A stretch of DNA of 59,440 nucleotides. It comes from an uncultured bacterium. GTDB taxonomy: Bacteria; Bacteroidota; Bacteroidia; Sphingobacteriales; Sphingobacteriaceae. The translations under genes were made by a program, and so were the position numbers. The DNA lies in NCBI GenBank assembly GCA_903828245.1, contig CAIKLP010000008.1, positions 1-59,440 on the forward strand. Direction: 5' to 3'. Shown piece by piece: positions 30,216 through 41,039 of this stretch. Under the pieces are notes generated by a model. It was not told the origin of the DNA. It did no database searches and worked only from the letters and a program-made list of their open reading frames with translations. How positions within the stretch are numbered: the first letter of the stretch is position 1; each line of letters starts with the position of its first letter.

Positions 30216-31718
30216 ATGGTTAAGAAAATTAAGCTATTTATTTTTTGTATGCTGATGCTGCAATCGCTTGTGGCCTCTCATATTGTTGGCGGTGGTTTTA
30301 GTTATCGTTATTTAGGCAACAATCAATACCAAATTAAATTAGCGTATTATAAAGATTGTGGTCTAAGTTCCATTGGCTTTCCGCCAGGTAGTTTAAAAGT
30401 TGGGATATTTGAAATAGGTACGCATCAACTAAAAACAGTTTTGCAATTGGCCATTGATTCTACTAACACTTTAGATTTTTCGCAAGCGGCTTGTGTAATG
30501 AGTCCTGTAAATTGTGTGCAACAAAGAAACTATTCGGCATTATTAACTATGCCTGCATTCGAATACAATCATCCGGCAGGTTATTATTTTGTTTACGAAC
30601 AATGTTGCCGAAATGCCTTAGCGCAAAATGTAGCAAACCCGCAAGACATAGGCTCAGCTTATTACATGGAGTGGAAACCTGATTTTGCAATCAATCAAAA
30701 TTTCGAAAATTCGAGTCCCGAATTTAAAAATTATCCTGCGCTACTTTTATGCGCATTTGAAAATTATGAACTCGATTTTTCTGCTACAGAACCAGACGGC
30801 GATTCTTTAGTTTATACACTCATTGACCCTTTAAAAGGCCATGCCAATGCCAATAGCTTAACCAATCAAACGGGTCAAGTAGATCCAATACCCGGGCCTT
30901 ACGATCCCATTGTTTGGAATACGGGTTATAGTTTAGCCGCAAATGTATTAGATGGTAATCCAGATATTAAAGTGGATGCGTCAACTGGTTTATTAAGTGT
31001 AAATCCTCAAAAAATTGGGGTTTATTTAGCCGCCATTCAATGCGAAGAATTTCGCAAAGGGATTAAAATTTCTGAAATCAGAAGAGAAATGCAATTTGCT
31101 ATAGTGCAATGTCCTAATAGGTTTGCGCCCGAAATTACTTGTTTGTCTAATTGTGTGCAACAGCAATTGCAACCCGATGAAAGCATTTGTTTTGATTTTT
31201 TAGTTGCAGATAGTAACCTATTAGATTCTATTCAATTGCAAGTCTCGTTTAATAAAAATCAATTGCTAAAAAATTATACTTTCAGTAAATCCGAAACTGC
31301 TAATCCTGCTATTGCAAAACTTTGCCTAGAAACAAATTGTAATTTAAAACAAGGAGATACCTTGTATGTTCGAATCTTAGCGCAAGATAATGCATGCCCT
31401 TATCCGCTCAAATCAAATTACGAATTTAAGCTGCCCTATGTTTCAATTTCGGATATTGATATATTAAAAGCGTTACCCAATGTATTTACACCCAACGAGG
31501 ATGGCTTCAACGATTTTTATTTTATACCTGGTGATTTTGCAAATTCTTGTGCCGAAAAATTTGCAGTCCAAATATATAATCGATGGGGAAAATTGGTATA
31601 TCAAAGCAGCGATGTTGGTTTTAAATGGCATGGCGACAATTTACCCGTTGGGCTTTATTTCGTGCATTTTGATATAAACGGGCGTAATTTAACGACGAAT
31701 ATTAGTTTGTTGCGTTGA
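30216..31718 (+). CDS. T9SS type B sorting domain protein (short AHIVGG paralogue)
   Basis: A 500-residue secreted surface protein. The signal peptide ends about residue 20, just before SHIVGGGFSYRYLGNNQYQ, the start of a conserved N-terminal domain with paired cysteines (YKDCG, QCCRN). One Ig-like domain (about 305-410) carries a cysteine pair and DNACP. The final 85 residues are the gliding-motility-associated (type B) C-terminal domain, with PNVFTPNEDGFNDFYF and YNRWGKLVYQ, which directs export by the type IX system. The ligand is unknown. It is followed 32 bases on by a longer paralogue. Confidence 0.9.
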   Translation: MVKKIKLFIFCMLMLQSLVASHIVGGGFSYRYLGNNQYQIKLAYYKDCGLSSIGFPPGSLKVGIFEIGTHQLKTVLQLAIDSTNTLDFSQAACVMSPVNCVQQRNYSALLTMPAFEYNHPAGYYFVYEQCCRNALAQNVANPQDIGSAYYMEWKPDFAINQNFENSSPEFKNYPALLLCAFENYELDFSATEPDGDSLVYTLIDPLKGHANANSLTNQTGQVDPIPGPYDPIVWNTGYSLAANVLDGNPDIKVDASTGLLSVNPQKIGVYLAAIQCEEFRKGIKISEIRREMQFAIVQCPNRFAPEITCLSNCVQQQLQPDESICFDFLVADSNLLDSIQLQVSFNKNQLLKNYTFSKSETANPAIAKLCLETNCNLKQGDTLYVRILAQDNACPYPLKSNYEFKLPYVSISDIDILKALPNVFTPNEDGFNDFYFIPGDFANSCAEKFAVQIYNRWGKLVYQSSDVGFKWHGDNLPVGLYFVHFDINGRNLTTNISLLR

Positions 31719-31750: not shown

Positions 31751-34309
31751 ATGTTGTTCAGAAAATCGGCCATTTTATTCCTCTTATTTACTTGCATGAG
31801 TCTAGGGCAATTATTTGCTGCACATATTGTAGGTGGCGATTTTAGTTACCGTCATATTTCGGGTGATACCTACGAATTAAAATTGAAAATGTTTAGGGAT
31901 TGTGGCGCAAATGGTGCTGGATTCGAACAATCTATTTCTGTTGGTATTTTTGATAAAGTAACCAATACGCGCGTCAAAAATATTACGATGCCACGAACTA
32001 TTATTTATCCAATCGTATATAATACTTCATGTATTAATCCACAATTACGTTGTGTAGAAGTGGGAATATTTAAAGGACAATTTACTATGCCTGCTACTCA
32101 GTTCAATAATACGGCGGGTTATTATGTGTCTTGGGAAAGATGTTGTAGAAATAATATCATTAAAAATATAGTTAGCCCTGGCAATACGCCCATGGCATTT
32201 TACATGGAATTGTCTTCGGCTTATCCGGGTGGAGGTGGTTTGCAAATCAATAACAGTCCCGAATTTACCCGCGACCCTTTGAGTTATTTGTGCATCAACG
32301 AACCATTTAAATATGATTTTAAAGCCATCGATGCGGATGGAGACTCTTTGCGATTTTCGATTATCACGCCCTTAGCTGGTGGAAATACAAGTAGTGGCGG
32401 TGGTGGTGCAGGTGTAGGTCCGGTTTCTCAGCCAGGTCCGTACGACGATGTTATTTGGCAAAATACCTATGGCCCATCTACCGGAAAGTATATGAATGGT
32501 GCACCCGACTTAGCGGTTGAAGCAAACAATTGTGTTATTTATTTGGTGCCCAAACAAATTGGAGTTTATGTTATTTCGATTTTATGCGAAGAGTATAGAG
32601 GGGGTGTTAAAATTGGAGAAGTAAGACGCGAGTTACAACTCGAAGTAATTGTTTGTCCACCTAGATTCAAGCCAGTAATATCTACTAGTTTAACTAATAA
32701 TACCATGTTGTTTACAGTAGGGCAACAAAGTTGCTTCGACTTAAATGGTATTGATGGTAATAATACCGAAATATTAAAATACAGAGTGGATACTTCTGGT
32801 GCCTATAAACTTTTATCGAAAGGTGCATTTTTTAATCCTGCCGATGCTACTGGCATGTCTACACTAACTACCAAATTTTGTTGGACGCCTATCTGCCCAT
32901 TAGATACAGCAGATGGGACTTTCATTGATTTTATTTTATACGATAATTCTTGTCCTTTTTCTCAAGACGATACGGTAAGAGTGAATTTTCAATTTCAATC
33001 TGTAGCGAATGCCATTCCAAAAATTAAAACCTCTTTGGCAAATAATATATTGAATGCTGAAATAGACAAGCAAAATTGTTTTCAAATTTTAGGAATTGAT
33101 TCGAATGCAGCAGATCAAATTACCATGACGGCTAGGTTCATCAACACCGATTTATTTGCGCAAGGAGCAACCTTCCCGCCAATTGTAATGGGTCAAAAAA
33201 ATGTGAGTGCAGAATTTTGTTGGACACCCGATTGTACCACTGCCATAGATTCCAATACTTATTTAGAAATTGTATTAGCAGATAATTCTTGTCCAATAGA
33301 AGGTACAGATACTTTATTAGTGAAAATTAATTTATTACCATTAGCTAACGAATCTCCATTGCTGCAAGCCTCTAGCTTAGCGGGTTCTAAGGTCGATCCA
33401 TTGGGCAATGTTGCTGCAGTGATTAACCAAGAAGTTTGCGTTGCGGTGATCGGTTCCGATTTTGATATCGACGATCAGCTAGATGTGTATATGCAAAATG
33501 TGAATTACGATTTTCTGGCCAATGGTGCCAAATTCCGTTTGATAGATCAAGTACAAGGTGAAAAACAGTATGAATTTTGTTGGACCCCCACTTGCGATAA
33601 TTTATATGCAGCAGGTGCACCCTCGGTCGATTTTTTAATCAGAGATAATAAATGTAAAAACGAAAAATTCGATACTTTAAGATTAACTATTTTATACGAA
33701 TTACCGACCAATAATATTCCTGCTATTATCAGACCCGATTCGGCTATTTATCATTTAAGCGCAGGTTATCCGCAAACAATCAATGTAACCGGAAAAGATT
33801 TTGATTTAGAAGACGACATTATACTTTCGGCCGAAGCTTTATTTAATGTCGGTCAAGCCATCACTACCGATTTTACTACTGTTTCCGGAAGAGATTCGGT
33901 GAGTTCGGTGTTTACTATTTTCCCAGATTGTGCAGCCACCGGCGACCAAGATTATCCTGTTCGATTTAAATTATTGAGTAATAAGTTTTGCAACGAATAC
34001 GACACGATTTACAAAACGGTAATATTTAAAGTGAATCCATTAGAGCCAATTGATAGGCCTTATATTCCAAATGCATTTTCTCCAAACAACGATAACATCA
34101 ACGATGTGTTTAAAATTTATTTTGCAGATAGAACGGTTTGCCCGGCTGCATTTAAGATTCAGATTTTTGATAGATGGGGAAAGATTATGTTCGAAAGTGA
34201 AGACCCATCTTTTCAATGGAAAGCAGAAGGGATGTCTATGGGAGCTTATGTGTATGTAGTAAAAATTGGGGAGCTACAATTTTCTGGATTTGTAGCCTTG
34301 GTTCAATAG
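31751..34309 (+). CDS. T9SS type B sorting domain protein (long AHIVGG paralogue)
   Basis: An 852-residue secreted protein, paralogue of the preceding one. It begins with a signal peptide and AHIVGGDFSYRHISGD. Residues about 305-660 hold three similar Ig-like repeats, each ending in FCWTP-C and a later DN-CP pair (near residues 376, 489 and 607). The extra repeats explain the length difference from the short copy. The C-terminal domain has NAFSPNNDNINDVFK and FDRWGKIMFES, typical of type B T9SS signals. A role in adhesion or matrix is likely but unproven. Confidence 0.9.
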   Translation: MLFRKSAILFLLFTCMSLGQLFAAHIVGGDFSYRHISGDTYELKLKMFRDCGANGAGFEQSISVGIFDKVTNTRVKNITMPRTIIYPIVYNTSCINPQLRCVEVGIFKGQFTMPATQFNNTAGYYVSWERCCRNNIIKNIVSPGNTPMAFYMELSSAYPGGGGLQINNSPEFTRDPLSYLCINEPFKYDFKAIDADGDSLRFSIITPLAGGNTSSGGGGAGVGPVSQPGPYDDVIWQNTYGPSTGKYMNGAPDLAVEANNCVIYLVPKQIGVYVISILCEEYRGGVKIGEVRRELQLEVIVCPPRFKPVISTSLTNNTMLFTVGQQSCFDLNGIDGNNTEILKYRVDTSGAYKLLSKGAFFNPADATGMSTLTTKFCWTPICPLDTADGTFIDFILYDNSCPFSQDDTVRVNFQFQSVANAIPKIKTSLANNILNAEIDKQNCFQILGIDSNAADQITMTARFINTDLFAQGATFPPIVMGQKNVSAEFCWTPDCTTAIDSNTYLEIVLADNSCPIEGTDTLLVKINLLPLANESPLLQASSLAGSKVDPLGNVAAVINQEVCVAVIGSDFDIDDQLDVYMQNVNYDFLANGAKFRLIDQVQGEKQYEFCWTPTCDNLYAAGAPSVDFLIRDNKCKNEKFDTLRLTILYELPTNNIPAIIRPDSAIYHLSAGYPQTINVTGKDFDLEDDIILSAEALFNVGQAITTDFTTVSGRDSVSSVFTIFPDCAATGDQDYPVRFKLLSNKFCNEYDTIYKTVIFKVNPLEPIDRPYIPNAFSPNNDNINDVFKIYFADRTVCPAAFKIQIFDRWGKIMFESEDPSFQWKAEGMSMGAYVYVVKIGELQFSGFVALVQ

Positions 34310-34312
34310 CGA

Positions 34313-34729
34313 CTAATTGTAAATCAATAAATAATCATTTGATATCGAAGTTTGGTAAGTTCTTAAGCCAGAGTTAGCAGGTCCTTTTATGGGAACACCA
34401 TCGTACAACTGATACCTCGAAGTACAGCATTTACAGCCTACAGAGCTCATCGCAGAATCTTGTTTAACATAAGCACAAGTATCGGTAGTTTGATAGGCAC
34501 AGGCACGATCGTATGCAGCATATTCGTTTATGTTTTTGTGATAAACAATAATTCCTCTATAGCCACCTTCAAGTATTAATACGCCACCAATGGTTTGCAA
34601 AGAAAGATACCTTGGGTTTTGTAAATTAATTTGCACATCGACCGGAATGTTTGGTATAGGGGAGTCGATGGTATCTGTGCAAGCAAAAAATTGCAAAGCT
34701 AACACCAGTGCTAAATACTTTATACGCAT
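34313..34729 (-). CDS. Rieske-like lipoprotein lacking the histidine ligands
   Basis: A 138-residue lipoprotein (lipobox FFAC, Cys17). The second half keeps the outline of a Rieske domain: a first cysteine region at 77-85 (YDRACAYQTTDTC), a second at 99-102 (GCKCCTSRYQLYDG), and the closing PIKGPANSGLRTY. Rieske proteins bind a 2Fe-2S cluster with two Cys and two His (CxH and CxxH). Here no His stands near either site, and five Cys (77, 85, 99, 101, 102) take their place. It may be structural, may bind another metal or a different cluster, or may be degenerate. It follows pheS by two bases on the same strand. Confidence 0.65.
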   Translation of the reverse strand: MRIKYLALVLALQFFACTDTIDSPIPNIPVDVQINLQNPRYLSLQTIGGVLILEGGYRGIIVYHKNINEYAAYDRACAYQTTDTCAYVKQDSAMSSVGCKCCTSRYQLYDGVPIKGPANSGLRTYQTSISNDYLLIYN

Positions 34730-34731
34730 GG

Positions 34732-35769
34732 TTAAATTTCTGATTTAAACTGCTTCAATAAGCGCATATCGTTTTCAAAAAACATGCGAATGTCTTTGAT
34801 TTTATATTTATTCATGGCCAATCTTTCGATACCAATTCCAAATGCAAAGCCAGTATATTTTTTCGAATCGATGCCGCAATTTTCTAACACATTTGGATCG
34901 ACCATACCGCAACCTAAAATTTCTACCCAGCCAGAGTACTTGCAGATATTACATCCTGAGCCTCCGCAGTTTTTGCATTGAATATCCATTTCTGCCGATG
35001 GCTCGGTGAATGGGAAGTAGGATGGGCGGAATCGCACCTCCGTGCCTTTTCCAAATAATTCTTGTACGAAATAATAAAGCGTTTGTTTTAAGTCTGCAAA
35101 AGAAACATTTTCGTCTACATACAAACCTTCTACTTGGTGAAATATACAATGCGATCGTGCAGAAATGGCTTCGTTTCTGAAAACCCTTCCTGGCATAATA
35201 GATCTTAATGGTGGTTGGTTATTCTCCATTAATCTAACTTGTACCGATGAAGTATGCGTTCGCAAAGCCCAATCTTGTGTTGGGTCGTTGTCGTCTTTCT
35301 GAATAAAGAAAGTGTCTTGCATATCTCTTGCCGGATGATCTAATGGAAAATTAAGCGCCGTAAAATTATGCTTATCGTCTTCTATTTGTGGTCCTTTAAC
35401 AATGGTAAAACCAATGCGAGTAAAAATATCATTGATTTGTTTTAAAACCAATGAAACCGGGTGTCTTGCGCCTAGTTCGCTGCTATCACCTGGCAGCGTA
35501 AAATCAAAATCTGCAATGGTATTTTCCGAAACGCTTTCGAATTTTTCTTTGTATAATTCGATTTTTTGTTCGATTAATACTTTGAATTCGTTCATTATTT
35601 TACCCGCCGTTTTTTTCTCTTCGCCTGGTAGGGCTTTGAAAATTTCGAACAGCTCATTTAAAATTCCTTTACGACCCAAAAACTGAATACGAAAGTTTTC
35701 TAGTTCTTCAGCATTTTTTGGTTCGAAAGCATTTATTTCGATACTATAGTGTTTAATTTTTTCTTGCAT
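34732..35769 (-). CDS. pheS: phenylalanyl-tRNA synthetase alpha subunit
   Basis: Catalytic subunit that charges tRNA-Phe, working as an alpha2beta2 tetramer with PheT, which is not in this window. The 345-residue length is right. An N-terminal coiled-coil tRNA-binding arm covers about 1-85. Motif 2 is MPGRVFRNEAISARSHCIFHQVEGL and motif 3 is GFAFGIGIERLAM near the end; FRPSYFPFTEPSAEMD binds substrate. It lies between kbl and the Rieske-like gene, with gaps of 5 and 2 bases. The cognate tRNA-Phe gene is 8.4 kb away. Confidence 0.97.
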   Translation of the reverse strand: MQEKIKHYSIEINAFEPKNAEELENFRIQFLGRKGILNELFEIFKALPGEEKKTAGKIMNEFKVLIEQKIELYKEKFESVSENTIADFDFTLPGDSSELGARHPVSLVLKQINDIFTRIGFTIVKGPQIEDDKHNFTALNFPLDHPARDMQDTFFIQKDDNDPTQDWALRTHTSSVQVRLMENNQPPLRSIMPGRVFRNEAISARSHCIFHQVEGLYVDENVSFADLKQTLYYFVQELFGKGTEVRFRPSYFPFTEPSAEMDIQCKNCGGSGCNICKYSGWVEILGCGMVDPNVLENCGIDSKKYTGFAFGIGIERLAMNKYKIKDIRMFFENDMRLLKQFKSEI

Positions 35770-39205: not shown

Positions 39206-40222
39206 TTATTCCGAAAATCGGCTATCGGTTAAAAAATGAGTGTCGGTTAATGTTTTTAAGAAGGCAATAATTTGTTGTTGTTCTAATGCCGTTAATCCCA
39301 AACCACCGATCAATCTGCTATCTACCGTGGTGCCAGGCTTAATTTCAGAAGCATAATGTTTTAGAACGGCTTCTAGTGTTGCGGCTCTACCATTATGATT
39401 ATATGGATATGATTTTTCTACGTTTCTAAGCGAAGGCGTTTTGAATTTATACAAATCAGAATCTTGCACAGTAACGGTTGCTCTGCCTAAATCCGAACTA
39501 GTTATTAAACCGGTATTATGAAATTTATTGTCGGTAAATAAAGGAGCCGTATGACAGCTATTGCATTTATTCATAAATAAATTTAAACCTACTTTTTCAT
39601 TTTCGGAAAGCGCAGACGTATTGCCCCTAAGGTATTCGTCGTATCTAGATTGGTTACTCAGGAGCATATTCATGAATTGAGAAAGTGCCATGGTTAAAGA
39701 AGCATAATCGACAGAATCTTTATTAAATGCTTTTTTAAACATCGCTCGGTAAGTGCTATTTGCATTTAATTTGCTGAGCAGTTCTGGCATTTTTTCGTCC
39801 ATTTCTACTGGATTGGTAATGGGATTGATTGGGAATTCATCTAAATGAAAAATACCACCATCCCAAGCAAAATATTTTTGCCATGCGGTATTTTGCAAAA
39901 CAGGTGCATTTCTATTACCAAGTTTATCATCTATACCATGACTTATGGTATGATCTAAATGAGCAAAGGCAGCAGCCTGTTGATGACAACTGCCACAAGA
40001 GATAGATCCGTCTCTAGAAAGTATTCCATCGTAAAATAACTTTTTACCTAAATCGAAACCTGCTTTATTCACTGGGTTTGCGCTAAAATTATAGCGTACC
40101 AAAGGAAAATTAATGGGCGCTTCGAAGCCTTTAAAGCTGGCCTCGGGGTTGATTTCTTTTGTACAAGCTTGACTCAGCACTATAAAGAATAAACAAGCTA
40201 AAAAGATTTTAAAGGCGCGCAT
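39206..40222 (-). CDS. MbnH/MauG family di-heme peroxidase, lipoprotein
   Basis: A 338-residue di-heme c-type enzyme of the MauG/cytochrome c peroxidase superfamily. Two heme motifs are CGSCH (76-80) and CNSCH (220-224). The signal ends in LSQAC (Cys20), so it is a lipoprotein. I chose the ATG at 40,222; the frame extends 18 codons upstream into the previous gene. The MbnP-like gene lies four bases upstream. In characterised pairs MbnH oxidises a tryptophan of MbnP to kynurenine, so this copy probably does the same. The alternative is a plain H2O2 peroxidase. Confidence 0.86.
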   Translation of the reverse strand: MRAFKIFLACLFFIVLSQACTKEINPEASFKGFEAPINFPLVRYNFSANPVNKAGFDLGKKLFYDGILSRDGSISCGSCHQQAAAFAHLDHTISHGIDDKLGNRNAPVLQNTAWQKYFAWDGGIFHLDEFPINPITNPVEMDEKMPELLSKLNANSTYRAMFKKAFNKDSVDYASLTMALSQFMNMLLSNQSRYDEYLRGNTSALSENEKVGLNLFMNKCNSCHTAPLFTDNKFHNTGLITSSDLGRATVTVQDSDLYKFKTPSLRNVEKSYPYNHNGRAATLEAVLKHYASEIKPGTTVDSRLIGGLGLTALEQQQIIAFLKTLTDTHFLTDSRFSE

Positions 40223-40226
40223 GTTG

Positions 40227-41039
40227 CTAGTTGGTAATGTGAGTAATGCTAAACATGTTTTGATAATTATTCGCAATATTTGCAGAGTAAGGAGTAAGCA
40301 TAACTGTAGGCGTGTTATTTAAATCAACTTGCGTACTTCCTTCGAGTACCTTGAGCGCATCTGCTTTGATTGTAATTTGTGCGGTAGTACTATTTGCAAT
40401 TAAGTTTAAGTTTTCGCCAAAATTCAAATGGACTAATCGGATATTATTTAAAGTAGGATTATTTAATCCGCCATATCCACCAATATGATATACATATGGA
40501 ATTGCCGCACTCGAATCTCCCCCTTTTGGAATAATTGGCATGCATTGTAATTTTAAAAATATATAACCTGTATTCCAGGTCCAATACATATCGGCAGCTG
40601 CAGCTCCAACATTCAAAGCCCCGGTTCTAGCGCTTGCAGGCATGCAGCTTCTAGCGCTGTCCACGCCAATCATAAATGATATTTTACAATAGTTGCCTAC
40701 AGGAATATTTTTAATATTAATATTTTGACTCGCTTTATTCGAACTTTTAATTAAAAAATAACAACTGTCTTGTGGTACAATATAACTTGTGCCATCTGTT
40801 TTTTCTAAAATAATATTAGAGATAAAATAATTGAATTTATCTACAGTAAAATTTTGTTCGATAGAATTGCTATAGTTAACGGTATTTAAAACAAGTAAAC
40901 TATCTGCAATATAATGATTGAATTTTATGGCAATGGTATTTGTTTGCGTAGCAGGAACAGCAGGGCTTTCGGGTTTGCATTGCGCAAAGAAAACCACTGT
41001 AATTAGCAATACGAATAATTTACTTTTCAATGCTTTCAT
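40227..41039 (-). CDS. MbnP-like copper-associated lipoprotein
   Basis: A 270-residue exported protein of the MbnP family (related to CorA), copper-binding in studied members. The lipobox is FFAQC (Cys21). Family marks are FNHYIADSLLVL, FNYFISNIIL, IGVDSARS and MYWTWNTGYIFLK with Trp153 and Trp155, one of which is the candidate for conversion to kynurenine. The MbnH-type partner follows by 4 bases, and the upstream gene overlaps by 20 bases. No methanobactin biosynthesis genes are nearby, so a methanobactin role is not implied. Confidence 0.83.
   Translation of the reverse strand: MKALKSKLFVLLITVVFFAQCKPESPAVPATQTNTIAIKFNHYIADSLLVLNTVNYSNSIEQNFTVDKFNYFISNIILEKTDGTSYIVPQDSCYFLIKSSNKASQNINIKNIPVGNYCKISFMIGVDSARSCMPASARTGALNVGAAAADMYWTWNTGYIFLKLQCMPIIPKGGDSSAAIPYVYHIGGYGGLNNPTLNNIRLVHLNFGENLNLIANSTTAQITIKADALKVLEGSTQVDLNNTPTVMLTPYSANIANNYQNMFSITHITN

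Follow-up and report, generated by a model that had tools for sequence, protein, structure and literature searches.

The 59,440-nucleotide stretch of DNA analysed here (the window) encodes, at positions 34313–34729 of the minus strand, a 138-residue protein whose ATG-initiated open reading frame was confirmed. Based on its sequence, its homologues and its predicted fold, this protein (P0001) is a Rieske-fold lipoprotein without the 2Cys-2His ligand set. Its first 16 residues (34682–34729, minus) make up a Sec-type lipoprotein signal without a twin arginine, as judged from the sequence and from comparison with canonical relatives, and are followed by the lipobox cysteine C17 (motif FFAC; 34679–34681, minus), which is nearly invariant in the family alignment. 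The other cysteines are C77, C85, C99, C101 and C102, and the sole histidine is H64, while a conserved C-terminal Rieske stretch, PIKGPANSGLRTY, recognised from sequence and alignment, occupies residues 113–125 (34355–34393, minus). Upstream on the same strand, a gene identified from its sequence as pheS (34732–35769, minus) lies two bases before the lipoprotein ATG, and all 10 same-family loci examined have a pheS-like neighbour. The 3′ end of the lipoprotein gene faces a plus-strand gene for a T9SS-sorted protein. Two adjoining T9SS-sorted (CHU_C) proteins are encoded on the plus strand of the window (30216–31718 and 31751–34309), with 16 and 25 cysteines, respectively, and similar N-termini (SHIVGG.FSYR). 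The window also encodes (39206–40276, minus) a member of the di-haem cytochrome c peroxidase (MauG/CCP) family that carries a lipoprotein-like signal.

The Pfam Rieske model (PF00355) gave the query 13.1 bits, under its gathering score of 20.3, and a Pfam scan of the query returned no family at E 0.01. When the query alone was searched against the PDB with phmmer, Rieske chains appeared at E values of about 0.7 and became significant only with a family profile: the profile of a 75-sequence family alignment, eight members of which match PF13806 weakly, retrieved the Rieske chains 8hn2 (E 2.3e-4) and 5cxm (E 2.5e-4). The first match of the phmmer search, a designed SAKe protein (E 0.0078), had no individually significant stretch and was dismissed as a fortuitous similarity to a repetitive segment. 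A single-sequence structure prediction (pLDDT 34) was set aside, while AF2 with the 75-sequence alignment provided a model with a pLDDT of 90.2 and a pTM of 0.78. Foldseek comparison of this model with the PDB placed 8hn2 at the top (E 2.7e-5), with 9rk4 also retrieved, and the leading matches were Rieske proteins and Rieske ferredoxins. VIA-align superposed the model on PetC3 (5cxm) over 98 residues (Z 12.2, rmsd 2.5 Å). The predicted structure and the profile match to 8hn2 thus both point to the Rieske beta-sandwich. Because the profile matches, AF2, Foldseek and VIA-align agree, a Rieske scaffold is well supported as the predicted fold of this protein.

Alignments of the query with 8hn2 and 5cxm place C77 (34499–34501, minus strand, as for all residues that follow) on the first ligand cysteine and Y79 (34493–34495) on the first ligand histidine, while C99 (34433–34435) and C102 (34424–34426) fall on the second ligand cysteine and histidine, respectively. 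C85 (34475–34477) and C101 (34427–34429) coincide with an extra cysteine pair, which is a loop disulfide in the Rieske subunits of bc1 and of Alcaligenes faecalis AioB according to the available text of PMC3758308. With both histidines gone, the query does not carry the CxH…CxxH ligand set. An earlier note on this DNA, which had described a lipoprotein of Rieske fold whose CxH and CxxH boxes are replaced and whose cysteines 77, 85, 99, 101 and 102 have no histidine nearby, is borne out on each of these points: both boxes are replaced, all five cysteines are there and H64 lies in neither box.

To place the query among its relatives, homologues were pooled from three sources. The first was a set of 60 relatives, of which 48 gave a match. 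In a phylum set, 203 of 395 genomes were matched by a profile that also catches canonical Rieske proteins, and 30 returned plus 60 hand-picked loci were taken from it; from a set of named genome contigs, 80 of 216 were kept. After removal of duplicates, this yielded 188 sequences, 47 with CxH…CxxH and 141 without. Exclusion of near-copies and short sequences left 162 (118 ligand-lacking and 44 canonical), from which a tree was built on 95 columns that omit the ligand boxes. The tree is unrooted and 63 of its 159 inner branches are open, but one branch (SH-aLRT 98) splits the 118 ligand-lacking from the 44 canonical sequences, a supported branch which suggests that the ligand-lacking proteins are a single clade of Bacteroidota lipoproteins. 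Canonical Rieske proteins are widely distributed and, as the tree is unrooted, it is from this distribution that we infer the direction of change: the cluster would have been lost rather than gained. Among the 118 non-redundant ligand-lacking sequences, position 102 is never histidine, position 79 is histidine in six, and position 99 is aspartate in 81. Judged by the ligands that define the [2Fe-2S] Rieske family, the protein does not belong to that family.

A few individual homologues deviate from this pattern. One (L046) reads CPH…CPCD over alignment positions 77–102, retaining three Rieske ligands with aspartate replacing the second histidine, and is possibly an intermediate or a Cys2-His-Asp site. 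A subgroup of five (L145, L146, L148, L149 and L157; NAPHIC…CPKD) has lost C77, C85 and C101 but retains H79; its cysteines lie near positions 81 and 99 and may represent a third way of arranging disulfides. A further contig (L114) is labelled Sphingomonadales, yet its homologue is typical of a Crocinitomicaceae-like group, probably owing to a binning or labelling error.

The two groups also differ in their export signals. Rieske proteins are Tat substrates (available text of PMC5449189), and in a loose count the motif R[RK]x[FLYMI] preceded the domain in 45 of the 47 canonical sequences, often as MDRKEFL or SRRxFL, versus 14 of the 141 ligand-lacking ones. Restricting the count to the predicted signals of sequences with a lipobox sharpened the difference to 36/38 canonical versus 6/136 ligand-lacking proteins, and these six mostly have short basic starts such as MRKKFL. 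The query has no twin-arginine signal. TatC is encoded in the window's genome, so the Tat route was available. If the protein is exported by Sec, a cluster that is inserted in the cytoplasm would presumably be missing from it. The surface-export motif of lipoproteins was found in 10 of 136 by a loose rule and was not used.

The distribution of the cysteines across the 118 ligand-lacking sequences indicated that they behave as two pairs. C102 never occurs without C77 and no sequence has C77 while lacking both C99 and C102, although C99 is kept without C77 in eight. C85 and C101 disagree in presence in just two of these sequences and in none of the 44 canonical ones. Both pairs are present in 62 sequences, only 85–101 in 45, only 77–102/99 in five and neither in six. 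Mapped onto the tree, eight of 11 changes were shared between positions 77 and 102 (null mean 1.0) and five of 6 between 85 and 101 (null mean 0.32), versus 0–1 co-changes for each of five cross-pair controls; these counts rest on the single 95-column tree with its open branches, and the starred branches alone give one or two independent comparisons for the pairs printed, too few for a test. MI-APC ranked 77–102 and 85–101 first and fifth among 5,671 column pairs. Most relatives have two or four cysteines in the mature part, while an odd number, which tells against the pairing, occurs in 36 of 136 ligand-lacking proteins, including the query with its five. Considering this pairwise covariation, C77–C102 and C85–C101 are most likely structural disulfides.

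This pattern bears directly on the metal site that the earlier note had proposed, in which four cysteines would ligate a 2Fe-2S cluster or another metal. The four cysteines are not kept or lost together, and because the pairs are lost separately, and one site would not shed its ligands two by two, a single four-cysteine site is not supported. A broader version, in which C77, C99 and C102 together with C85 or C101 bind [2Fe-2S], Zn or Cu, gains from the fact that in the window's lineage these three cysteines occupy three of the four ligand positions, and that all five cysteines occur together in seven of the 118 sequences, at four places on the tree. However, C85/C101 and C77/C102 are lost independently, C99 is aspartate in most of the clade, C77 and C99 covary weakly (MI-APC rank 280) and the Tat-type signal is absent. 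We therefore regard an all-cysteine or mixed metal site as very unlikely, and a three-cysteine site confined to the five-cysteine lineage of the window as unlikely too.

Disulfides of this kind would form outside the cytoplasm. Functional disulfides between envelope proteins have been demonstrated in a member of the Bacteroidota, Flavobacterium johnsoniae, where SprF and PorG exchange disulfides with GldK through their CxC tails (available text of PMC12635249). A search of the window's genome returned no VKOR, DsbD_TM or DsbB match, and its sole DSBA match has no visible signal peptide and looks cytoplasmic; VKOR was found in nine of 60 relatives. Set against these results are the disulfides demonstrated in F. 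johnsoniae and the 16 and 25 cysteines of the two T9SS-sorted proteins encoded beside the gene. The absence of VKOR, DsbB and DsbD_TM matches is a caveat on the disulfide reading, not a refutation. Proteins exported from the window's genome are thus encoded here with many cysteines although the genome has no match to these three families.

The precedent in F. johnsoniae also suggests a redox-active thiol module, in which C99-x-C101-C102 would swap disulfides with partner proteins as the SprF/PorG tails do with GldK. Odd cysteine counts in 36 of 136 proteins speak for this, and genes for GldM, GldN and GldB lie near the lipoprotein gene in part of the loci. Nevertheless, the third cysteine is not kept family-wide, GldM/GldN neighbours recur in no more than 13 of 79 loci, where they may simply reflect synteny between related genomes, and none of the window neighbours scanned was identified as such a gene. 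We consider a thiol module unlikely, and assign a low probability to a thiol-exchange or metal role for the extra C99 in the window's lineage.

The gene neighbourhood is conserved within the window's family. All 10 loci examined from the window's family share the order pheS-like gene, lipoprotein gene and TetR-like regulator, while each of 10 loci selected in other families has a divergent GreA-like gene; the names GreA, HIT and TetR for some of these neighbours are presumptive, being read from the sequence by eye. No consistent electron-transfer partner was found beside the gene: a Fer2 ferredoxin is at position +1 in 30 of 79 loci, but ABC-F, NadE, GldM/GldN and GldB recur too, and its presence was therefore attributed to a gene order that related genomes have in common.

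An association was found with a small exported Lys/Arg-rich protein, whose gene is adjacent to and divergent from (head-to-head with) the lipoprotein gene in 45 of 79 loci from named genome contigs. These proteins are about 90–125 residues long, share the motif KRHxxIQxKxTRKRMKKxxKKS (L062–L141, for example L113:5618–5932, minus) and have a median pI of 10.8, compared with 5.2 for the ligand-lacking lipoproteins. A Pfam scan of one member returned no family. Of 60 relatives, 15 have a strong match (E under 1e-7), which in 12 of them adjoins the lipoprotein gene, and a complex of the two proteins is plausible in lineages with both genes. The window's genome has no match to the small basic protein at E 0.01, and across 37 genomes of the window's family just four matches were obtained, all of them weak (E 2e-4 to 6e-3) and none under 1e-7. 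As the window's family is without this gene, such a complex cannot be the whole function of the lipoprotein. A more ambitious proposal joins these elements into a Bacteroidia-wide envelope module, in which the cluster was stripped, the ligand positions became a disulfide, export moved from Tat to Sec, a polybasic partner acts in many lineages, and the spare cysteine of five-cysteine proteins links covalently to envelope machinery like SprF/PorG; we regard this as unlikely in its entirety.

The loss of the ligands, the lack of an obvious adjoining redox partner and the finding that a PF00355 search detected no canonical Rieske match elsewhere in the window's genome could instead signify a Rieske gene in decay that no longer serves any function. 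This is contradicted by the selection result, as dN/dS among five same-genus sequences is 0.06–0.13, which points to purifying selection and means that the gene is very likely functional. In addition, a homologue was detected in 48 of 60 relatives, with no internal stops among the matches listed, and decay is in our estimation extremely improbable. The dN/dS values and the spread of homologues also show that the sequence pattern of the protein did not arise by chance. A literature search, which did not extend to most subscription journals, identified no paper on this lipoprotein family and no experiment on any member, and Rieske proteins are not mentioned in the available text of a paper on the Bacteroidota BAM complex (PMC12611786).

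Collectively, we consider it likely that the protein is a cluster-less, Sec-exported Rieske-fold lipoprotein that is locked by disulfides and has a scaffold or binding role in the envelope. In this proposal, an ancestral Rieske fold would have lost its [2Fe-2S] cluster, the second ligand histidine being absent throughout the clade and the first from nearly all members, while the pre-existing loop disulfide C85–C101 would usually have been retained. In many lineages, the former ligand positions C77 and C102 would have formed a second disulfide, closing the pocket that the cluster vacated. Sec would export the protein in unfolded form; after lipidation on C17 it would fold on the far side of the membrane into a rigid beta domain that is non-redox and presumably metal-free. 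Its role in the envelope is most likely structural or one of binding, and in many lineages it probably acts with the very basic small exported protein encoded head-to-head. If true, this would document a metalloprotein fold that lost its cofactor while its ligand positions were turned to use as a disulfide and its export route shifted in step. It also cautions against annotating lipoproteins of this clade as 2Fe-2S electron carriers, and brings a conserved, uncharacterised Bacteroidota lipoprotein family to notice.

Several known systems are comparable to this protein. The bc1/b6f-type Rieske proteins (8hn2, 5cxm and 1rie) share with the query their fold, the GPA…LxxY stretch and the loop cysteines C85/C101, but the query has no histidine ligands, carries a Sec lipoprotein signal rather than a Tat-type anchor, and is a stand-alone lipoprotein with no adjoining cytochrome b partner. 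The Rieske fold is also common to NirD (Rieske_2, PF13806; 3c0d and 2jza), which belongs to nitrite reductase as a cytoplasmic subunit and has cluster-less members. In contrast, the query is an exported lipoprotein with cysteine pairs, is encoded beside pheS and has no PF13806 match at E 0.01. One NirD with two substituted ligands is described in the available text of PMC3475470. The Rieske subunit of arsenite oxidase, AioB (1g8j and 4aay), aligns with the query model at VIA Z 10.4–11.3, and the loop disulfide comes and goes within the AioB family (available text of PMC3758308), but AioB differs from the query in retaining its cluster and belonging to an enzyme. The closest sequences outside the clade are canonical Bacteroidota Rieske lipoproteins whose signals are of the MDRKEFL type (for example L147 and L164 in the set of 47), many of which are also lipoprotein-like and similar in size to the clade, but which, unlike the clade, keep both CxH…CxxH and the Tat-type signal.
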